Source: Candidatus Saccharimonadota bacterium
Lineage (GTDB): Bacteria; Patescibacteriota; Saccharimonadia; Saccharimonadales; Saccharimonadaceae
Length of the DNA stretch: 64,000 bases
Assembly (NCBI GenBank): GCA_028286285.1
Contig: JAQBRV010000002.1
Location: forward strand, 180,814-244,813
Direction: 5' to 3'
Shown here: piece by piece, positions 5,246 to 18,405 of the stretch
How positions within the stretch are numbered: position 1 is the first letter of the stretch
How the letters are laid out: the number at the start of each line of letters is the position of its first letter
Made by a program: the position numbers and the translations under genes
Notes under the pieces: generated by a model
Told to the model about the DNA's origin: nothing
The model's database searches: none
The model's input: only the letters and a program-made list of their open reading frames with translations

Positions 5246-5275
5246 TTTGCAAAACTAATGAGTTTATGCTATAAT
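5246..5275 (+). promoter_or_regulatory. Promoter with extended -10 for the small GC-rich gene
   Basis: TTGCAA at 5247-5252, 17-base spacer, TATAAT at 5270-5275 with an upstream TG (TGCTATAAT, extended -10). Predicted start of transcription is near 5282, giving a leader of about 170 bases. The same TATGCTATAAT string precedes the gene at 37256-37546. Confidence 0.75.
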
Positions 5276-5316
5276 GAGTATACTTCGTTTGAGTAAAGAC
5301 TTACTTCGAGGTACTT

Positions 5317-5417
5317 TGACAAGCAGACAAACACAAGGTGGGCAGTAAGTGTACTAAAAAGTATATTTACTCCTCATCTTGTGTGTTTATGGAAAAACAC
5401 AACTAGCTTTTGCTAGT
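5317..5417 (+). promoter_or_regulatory. Structured 5' leader
   Basis: Three foldable parts are visible. Bases 5317-5329 are perfectly complementary to 5865-5877, just ahead of the ribozyme. Bases 5329-5337 pair with 5378-5388 (two-base bulge) and enclose a second stem, 5344-5354 with 5361-5371, which uses G-U pairs. Bases 5402-5407 pair with 5412-5417 around a TTTT loop. The Shine-Dalgarno at 5442-5450 lies outside these stems. The structure is predicted by eye; any ligand or protein partner is unknown. Confidence 0.55.
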
Positions 5418-5451
5418 GGCGCACCACGCCCGGACAGATGTGGAGAAAGGT

Positions 5452-5781
5452 ATGACAATGTCTCTGCCATTCACACGCAGTGGACAGGACAGGTCGCCCG
5501 AGAACCTCGAGCGACCCACCATCGACAGCATGGTTACTAGCCAGGTGGCCTACACGTTGCCCTGGGGTATGTGGGTCGACAACACTCGCTGCCTCTGGCT
5601 GCACCCCAAGTACCCCATCACCGATGAAGTACGCGGTACTTCGCGTATGCGCATCGAGTTGCGCCATGACGGCTACCACGTGTGGCCCCCTGCTGACGAA
5701 ACCTGGTCTCCGTCCAAGGAGCCTGGCTACGCTAGCCCAGAGGACACGGAGTACATCCCCGTCGTCAAGCTTCACCGCTGA
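5452..5781 (+). CDS. Small Trp-rich protein of unknown function, atypical codon use
   Basis: A 109-residue protein starting MTMSLPFTRSG, with a GGAGAAAGG ribosome site at 5442-5450; the second ATG at 5458 is an equally good start. No family is recognised. The middle is rich in Trp and aromatic residues (LPWGMWVDN, CLWLHPKYP, YHVWPPADETW) and reads as a compact beta-rich cytosolic domain without signal peptide or membrane segment. Codons end strongly in C or G, unlike the neighbouring genes but like the small genes at 36190, 37256 and 38278. It is flanked by inverted repeats and followed by a hammerhead ribozyme, so its mRNA 3' end is probably made by self-cleavage. Confidence 0.7.
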   Translation: MTMSLPFTRSGQDRSPENLERPTIDSMVTSQVAYTLPWGMWVDNTRCLWLHPKYPITDEVRGTSRMRIELRHDGYHVWPPADETWSPSKEPGYASPEDTEYIPVVKLHR

Positions 5782-5832
5782 AGTTCGCGTTTACAACGAA
5801 CGTGGCAAGTGGATATAGGTTCAAACCTAGGT

Positions 5833-5857
5833 TCACGGCTTCCGTGATGTTTTCCTT
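5833..5857 (+). terminator. Weak terminator-like hairpin between gene and ribozyme
   Basis: TCACGG (5833-5838) and CCGTGA (5842-5847) form a six-bp stem with a three-base loop, followed by a T-rich tract broken by G and C (TGTTTTCCTT). It could cause partial termination before the ribozyme; if it were strong the ribozyme would rarely be transcribed. Confidence 0.35.
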
Positions 5858-5879
5858 AACCCTATGTCTGCTTGTCATA

Positions 5880-5932
5880 TTCGCTCCACAAATGTGTATT
5901 TGTGCTGATGAGTCCGAAAGGACGAAAGCGAA
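5880..5932 (+). ncRNA. Type III hammerhead self-cleaving ribozyme
   Basis: All core elements of the hammerhead fold are present in order. Stem III: TTCGC (5880-5884) with GCGAA (5928-5932), plus the conserved U5885-A5927 pair. Unpaired cleavage base C5886. Stem I: CACAAAT (5887-5893) with ATTTGTG (5898-5904), GTGT loop. Core CTGATGA at 5905-5911. Stem II: GTCC (5912-5915) with GGAC (5920-5923), GAAA loop. Core GAA at 5924-5926. Every stem is perfectly paired, and stem III is the open end (type III). Predicted cleavage is 3' of C5886. It follows the 5452-5781 gene by about 100 bases and ends 24 bases before the right repeat arm. Confidence 0.9.
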
Positions 5933-5956
5933 ACATTATAATTTATTACACTTCCT

Positions 5957-18195: not shown

Positions 18196-18263
18196 AAAAA
18201 TCCTTCCTTCGATTACATTTTTCTGACCAAATTGTCAATGTGCTGATAATGTGAGAAACAAAA

Positions 18264-18294
18264 AAGTCTTTGATTCTCGCACTACCAAAGACTT
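18264..18294 (-). terminator. Attenuator hairpin in the rplJ leader
   Basis: Nine-bp stem AAGTCTTTG/CAAAGACTT (18286-18294 with 18264-18272) followed by TTTTTTG on the minus strand, between the L10 leader and the rplJ start. An intrinsic terminator in this place is the usual output of L10 leader regulation. Confidence 0.8.
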
Positions 18295-18319
18295 GCATGA
18301 ATGAAATGTTTATTTACAT

Positions 18320-18362
18320 CCTCGGTAGCTAATTAAGTGTCTCCACGGCTACTGTCTCTGGT
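18320..18362 (-). promoter_or_regulatory. Ribosomal protein L10 leader (L10-binding RNA)
   Basis: On the minus strand the core reads ACCAGAGACAGTAGCCG followed by a variable helix and TTAATTAGCTACCGAGG, matching the L10 leader pattern (AGACAGUAG ... UUAAU..CUACCGAGG). Binding of the L10-L12 complex here should favour the downstream terminator. Confidence 0.8.
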
Positions 18363-18376
18363 AATGTCTAGTCAAC

Positions 18377-18405
18377 AGTATACCGTACAGCCTTTTATAA
18401 TGCAA
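18377..18405 (-). promoter_or_regulatory. Promoter of the rplJ-rplL operon
   Basis: On the minus strand TTGCAT (18400-18405), a 17-base spacer, then TATACT (18377-18382). The start of transcription falls near 18370, just before the L10 leader. Confidence 0.75.

Follow-up and report, generated by a model that had tools for sequence, protein, structure and literature searches.

Hammerhead ribozymes have been described in prophages, where they flank single genes and were proposed to act in mRNA processing (Perreault et al. 2011, PMC3088659), and a review calls the biological role of prokaryotic hammerheads open (PMC6155905). In the open-access literature, to which our search was confined, we found no work joining hammerheads with Saccharibacteria, TM7 or CPR bacteria in this sense. 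A second point of comparison is offered by the hok-type mRNAs of type I toxin-antitoxin systems, in which a long-range 5'-3' fold-back competes with local hairpins. The hammerhead analyzed here lies in a stretch of 64,000 nucleotides (the window) from a Saccharibacteria genome of 774 kb in four contigs. Together with the sTRSV-like type III hammerheads (RF00008), it has the catalytic core, the A15.1-U16.1 pair, C17, an open stem III and closed stems I and II; in contrast to the family model, it scores 10 bits below the cut-off, has a short 4-nt loop II and is preceded by a conserved strand, P0'. Its loops appear similar to the UGUGCUU and GUGA loops of sTRSV. The ribozyme is a new member of a known hammerhead class. 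As in the prophage examples (PMC3088659), hammerheads of this kind stand beside single, changing, phage-like genes, occur in arrays and in part accompany anti-defence cargo; unlike them, the present unit has a chromosomal placement in one bacterial order, a structured leader that stays constant, a stem that joins the 5' and 3' ends, and an exchange of the ribozyme for intrinsic terminators. For such a closed-loop mRNA with hammerhead/terminator exchange we found no description in the open-access literature, and it looks new. We consider it probable (about 0.74) that the hammerhead serves to make the 3' end of an independent mRNA cassette with a single gene, closed into a loop by the pairing of P0, a strand of the leader, with P0'.

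The hammerhead and its relatives

Direct reading of the ribozyme revealed stem III (5880-5885/5927-5932, UUCGCU/AGCGAA), stem I (5887-5893/5898-5904, CACAAAU/AUUUGUG, loop GUGU) and stem II (5912-5915/5920-5923, GUCC/GGAC, loop GAAA), with the core motifs CUGAUGA at 5905-5911 and GAA at 5924-5926, the A15.1-U16.1 pair at 5927-5885, and C5886 at position 17, where an H is required. Stem III is open, stems I and II are closed, and there are no mismatches; folded alone, the segment adopts exactly the type III shape (z -3.4). The earlier note's description of a canonical type III hammerhead, with three mismatch-free stems in 53 bases, is therefore borne out, and the type III hammerhead at 5880-5932 is confirmed as complete and intact in its core, its predicted cleavage site lying between C5886 and C5887. 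The RF00008 model matched 5879-5933 with 38.1 bits, at E 2.3e-6 when a 1.2-kb stretch was searched and at E 3.4e-7 in the whole-genome search. Because this score lies below the Rfam gathering cut-off of 48.5 bits, which is a library convention rather than a biochemical criterion, the hammerhead is absent from a default Rfam scan of the window. The earlier note would take the lack of a score above cut-off as a refutation, and formally this is what the model search gave; the match is nonetheless highly significant, and 71 of the 75 related genomes carrying a significant RF00008 match share the shortfall. Further intact hammerheads were not found in the window, which holds a single copy.

When 297 related genomes were searched, 75 contained RF00008 matches at E<=0.01, with 149 matches in total, so that the description of bacterial hammerheads as uncommon does not hold for this order; of 287 genomes sampled across the whole phylum, 14 had hammerhead matches (E<=1e-4), including 11 from beyond the window's order. 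Among 60 hammerheads of identical dimensions, 95.8% of the stem cells were paired as compared to 70% after shuffling, 296 cells were changed on both sides as compared to 83, and the U16.1-A15.1 pair was invariant (60/60). The loops proved not to be featureless: loop I mostly reads UGYGUR (UG[UC]GU[AG] in at least 39 of 60, summed among the sequences listed) and loop II reads NAAA in 56 of 60. Because both loops are conserved in these same-size relatives, a contact between loops I and II is plausible, which weakens but does not settle the doubt raised earlier that such a contact is not obvious.

The genome contains a second hammerhead (contig 1, 84551-84605, 49.6 bits; L015, L060), which directly follows a promoter-like sequence; a gene starts 27 nt downstream of it. 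It belongs to a minority of hammerheads in the order that sit in 5' UTRs and, because of this position, cannot serve 3'-end formation. Three 5' UTR hammerheads precede similar genes. At L031 and L089, genes similar to the one following the second own-genome copy likewise have a 5' UTR hammerhead.

The transcription unit and its closing stem

Viewing the window's ribozyme as a lone curiosity turned out to be incomplete, since it has many relatives and closes a conserved transcription unit that has a promoter-like sequence, a structured leader and a 5'-3' closing stem of its own. The unit spans about 5247-5933 and is ordered as promoter-like site, H1, P0, H2, small RAGATH-10-like hairpins, Shine-Dalgarno sequence, gene, 3' hairpin, P0' and hammerhead:

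5247..5275, + strand: promoter-like TTGCAA-17-TATAAT with TG before the -10 (consensus scan, 10/12 matches)
5281..5313, + strand: H1, 5' terminal hairpin UACUUCG-UUU-GAGUAA ... UUACUU-CGAGGUA (direct reading)
5317..5329, + strand: P0, 13 nt, UGACAAGCAGACA, forming the 5' side of the closing stem (inverted repeat, covariation, held-out test)
5332..5383, + strand: H2, long rod hairpin CACAAGGUGGG...CUCAUCUUGUG of 23 pairs (covariation)
5368..5450, + strand: RAGATH-10-like segment with three small hairpins and, at its end, the Shine-Dalgarno GGAG at 5442-5445 (RF03147)
5452..5781, + strand: cargo gene of 109 codons, actinophage protein family (sequence and fold matches)
5803..5819, + strand: local 3' UTR strand UGGCAAGUGGAUAUAGG, alternative partner of P0' (-26.7 kcal/mol; own better than swapped, p 0.004)
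5833..5847, + strand: 3' UTR hairpin UCACGGCUUCCGUGA with a U-rich tract downstream (scan; conserved in tails)
5865..5877, + strand: P0', UGUCUGCUUGUCA, forming the 3' side of the closing stem immediately upstream of the ribozyme (complement of P0; covariation)
5880..5932, + strand: type III hammerhead ribozyme (RF00008, 38.1 bits; 60 same-size relatives with covariation)

The small protein gene noted earlier upstream of the ribozyme is thus present, ending 98 nt before it, and the earlier note rightly tied the hammerhead to the 3' end of a small mRNA and its chromosome to the CPR, here Saccharibacteria. Transcription is predicted to start at about 5282, and TATGCTATAAT-like -10 sequences recur about 50 nt upstream of P0 in relatives. 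The 3' UTR contains a terminator-like hairpin with a U-rich tract (5833-5856) upstream of P0'; it may act as a weak terminator or pause. Some messages may end there and would be without P0' and ribozyme. Elsewhere in the window, a ribosomal protein L10 leader (18251-18379, - strand, 64.6 bits) is an ordinary one.

Leaders were found with a covariance model, R1, that is blind to the 3' end. R1 leaders occurred in 44 of the 297 relatives and, phylum-wide, in 3 of 287 genomes, all within the window's order; among the genomes searched, the leader is known only from this order. Likewise, the P0'-plus-hammerhead pattern was found in 12 DNA stretches among 84,980 species, all labelled Saccharibacteria, TM7 or Saccharimonadia, and among 2.9 million viral contigs neither this pattern nor the leader pattern had a match. 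Over its final 135 nt, the window's unit shares 78-92% identity with the cassette ends of several other genera, whose ORFs differ, and its leader is similarly alike in some of them, comparisons indicating that the cassettes are a fixed frame around changing ORFs.

Within the leader, 13 of the 23 H2 pairs were changed on both sides, with 93% of cells paired (18 sequences), and for the whole leader structure including H2 none of 500 shuffles reached the observed covariation. The arrangement of H1 is by eye the same in aligned leaders. The RAGATH-10 model (RF03147) finds a match in the 3' portion of the leader at 28.8 bits (E 0.005), short of the 41.2-bit gathering score, so that both RNA matches in the window fall below their Rfam cut-offs; two relatives exceed the RF03147 cut-off (G154, 72.9 bits; G165, 53.3 bits). 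Of H2, the Rfam model includes the 3' arm alone and gives it the Shine-Dalgarno region as partner, whereas the covarying partner of this arm lies upstream, outside the model. The RAGATH-10 outer stem, formed by CCUCAUCU with the Shine-Dalgarno region, and H2 are mutually exclusive. Although 9 of 10 pairs of the outer stem are possible in the window, own sequences gave no clear gain over swapped ones in 18 leaders (p 0.37), and we set aside an anti-Shine-Dalgarno switch through this stem as lacking specific support.

An inverted-repeat search revealed P0 as the exact complement of P0'. In 26 cassettes, 97% of P0/P0' cells were paired, a value inflated by the partial choice of these cassettes for complementarity. 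Less dependent on this choice are the two-sided changes, affecting 6 of 13 pairs and 21 cells and equalled by none of 500 shuffles, and a held-out test, in which the P0 partner was better in a leader's own downstream sequence than in swapped ones (31.2 vs 23.0, p 7e-5). Sliding the P0 alignment by one column reduced pairing to below 30%. Because G-U pairs occur in P0/P0', pairing as RNA is favoured over DNA inverted repeats. In the predicted mature mRNA, P0 and H2 had a pairing probability of 1.00, and the local alternative of P0' and the RAGATH-10 outer stem each had 0.00.

The cassette works like hok-type mRNAs in combining a 5'-3' pairing with competing local hairpins, a likeness from which we claim no membership. 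Here, the closing stem itself would be the working part: the partner of P0' would set translation, and hammerhead trimming or termination would start the refolding. P0' indeed has two mutually exclusive partners, each better in own than in swapped sequences (p 7e-6 for P0 duplex energies in the first cassette set), the local partner is strong in 17 of 27 cassettes, and P0 is retained where the hammerhead is dead or replaced. Because the local 3' UTR strand pairs with P0' specifically, a hok-type fold-back switch is a possible alternative, to which we give a less than even chance: the proposed anti-Shine-Dalgarno switch has no specific support over the swap control and a probability of 0 in the predicted mature mRNA, and toxin-like cargo was not recognised. 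Unlike hok-type mRNAs, moreover, the cassette obtains its 3' end by ribozyme or terminator and carries diverse cargo that is not hok-like. As compared to such a switch, end protection is the simpler inference for what the loop does.

Ribozyme or terminator at the message end

The strongest evidence for a role of the ribozyme in 3'-end formation is its exchange for a terminator in relatives. Leaders and hammerheads also occur together: of 48 held-out leaders, 9 were followed by an Rfam-detected hammerhead 300-1400 nt downstream on their own strand, whereas over this range the opposite strand had none, and the chance expectation was about 0.015 from the density of matches. Many leaders are without a recognisable hammerhead, and for 21 held-out leaders lacking an Rfam hammerhead match we read what comes after P0'. 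An intrinsic terminator was present in 10 of 21, as compared to 1 of 21 control windows, a CUGACGA hammerhead in 3 (L182, L196, L199), and neither a hammerhead nor a clear terminator in about 8. Of 27 hammerhead cassettes, 5 also had a terminator-like site within the corresponding 110 nt. Relative G075 has a terminator in place of the hammerhead, and in relative G154 (L061) the hammerhead core is broken while the adjoining P0 has covaried and is retained. A degenerate hammerhead adjoining an intact P0/P0' pair was also seen in G182 (L189). These arrangements indicate that hammerhead and intrinsic terminator are interchangeable after P0'.

The placement relative to genes is also directional. 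According to mechanical ORF calls, a same-strand ORF of at least 100 aa ends within 250 nt upstream in 72 of 83 hammerheads, and downstream ORFs show no strand preference (34 vs 33); stop codons lie 11-234 nt upstream, mostly 40-130. Within 80 nt past the hammerheads, terminators were not in excess over control (5/86 vs 4/86). By eye, small ubiquitin-like ORFs precede hammerheads at L062, L079 and L125, with ThiF/E1-like genes adjoining at L062 and L079.

For the main reading, that of a loop-closed cassette with a ribozyme-formed end, we propose the following course. Transcription would begin near 5282, run through the leader, the cargo gene of 109 codons and the 3' UTR, and continue beyond 5933, with no terminator directly after. 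The hammerhead would then fold and cut between C5886 and C5887, leaving a message that ends in ...CAUAUUCGCUC with a 2',3'-cyclic phosphate. Just before the cut, P0' would pair with P0 near the 5' end to give a looped message, a pairing that could compete with the local 3' UTR hairpin. Looping probably protects the ends against nucleases and/or enables the leader to detect that the message is complete. The computations show the ribozyme fold with its conservation, the P0 and H2 pairings, their position around a cargo gene and the exchange of hammerhead for terminator; from there we infer the promoter, in vivo cleavage and a stabilising or controlling benefit of the loop.

Cargo, genomic setting and remaining explanations

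The 109-aa cargo protein matches a protein of Rhodococcus phage Weasels2 (E 3e-12), and its fold matches Weasels2 and Clavibacter phage CN1A proteins; the family also occurs in IMG/VR contigs, as detected with a two-sequence profile, and in a Tsukamurella plasmid. Degenerate protein patterns scanned over viral and genome contigs had returned no cargo homologue. The protein had no match in Pfam, PHROG or NCBIfam, nor among PDB folds at E<=0.001. In relative G296, a 60%-identical homologue lies upstream of a hammerhead. Of 68 cargo ORFs, some of them mechanical calls and perhaps not genes, few match any family, among them a Thoeris inhibitor (Tad4), a NUDIX protein and a glycoside hydrolase, and the set matches 13 phage families. 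We found neither hammerhead nor RAGATH near the phage homologues of the cargo and, with the leader and tail patterns absent from viral contigs, rejected a viral origin of the whole cassette.

The hammerhead stands alone between chromosomal genes, with a convergent yajQ downstream. Because none of 29 other yajQ loci has a hammerhead, the cassette looks like an insertion at this locus. A tRNA gene lies near 5 of 20 leader loci (L182, L184, L185, L194, L195), which hints at tRNA-linked insertion. Nested inverted repeats (5023-5233/5956-6162) lie on both sides of the cassette, with a perfect stretch of 41 nt and about 79% agreement over 200 nt. Their arms flank no other cassette among the loci compared, and short pieces of the left arm are scattered as repeats through 6 of 100 other relatives, with 7 in a single genome; we therefore rejected them as mobile-element ends and treat the arms as separate, putatively REP-like repeats.

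This setting bears on the explanation that flanking hammerheads process long prophage-type transcripts into single-gene mRNAs. Precedent comes from the single genes, such as ardA, flanked by hammerheads in prophages (PMC3088659), and the partly phage-like cargo, the one Thoeris-inhibitor family match and the tandem gene-hammerhead arrays of some genomes agree with it. The window's hammerhead, however, is solitary, has its own promoter-like sequence and faces the convergent yajQ, and the composite has no match in the viral contigs, so that we regard this explanation as unlikely. Still less credible is a relic, that is, a sequence-perfect hammerhead that is untranscribed or unused: degenerate copies exist in relatives, but the core is intact and the stems are kept by compensating changes in the 60 relatives. 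A retrozyme- or viroid-like element, whose hammerhead would free a unit-length RNA that is circularised and spreads, is the least probable, despite the type III fold, the tandem copies in some genomes and a mobile-looking distribution of conserved UTRs with changing ORFs, since the locus has one hammerhead rather than one at each end and hence no unit to excise, some cassettes carry a terminator instead, and no reverse transcriptase was noticed in an unsystematic reading of loci.

Beyond the loop-closed cassette in the window, a broader proposal is tentative and rather doubtful: that Saccharibacteria possess lineage-specific autonomous closed-loop mRNAs, in which a fixed structured leader pairs with the 3' end, exchangeable and often phage-derived cargo is followed interchangeably by a hammerhead or an intrinsic terminator, and translation depends, through the competing pairings, on proper 3'-end formation. 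The relatives provide a natural control experiment, as the same mRNA class with its closing stem ends in a hammerhead, in a dead hammerhead (one genome) or in an intrinsic terminator; 3'-end formation is therefore directly testable. In episymbiotic CPR bacteria, an unannotated class of structured mRNA marks accessory genes.
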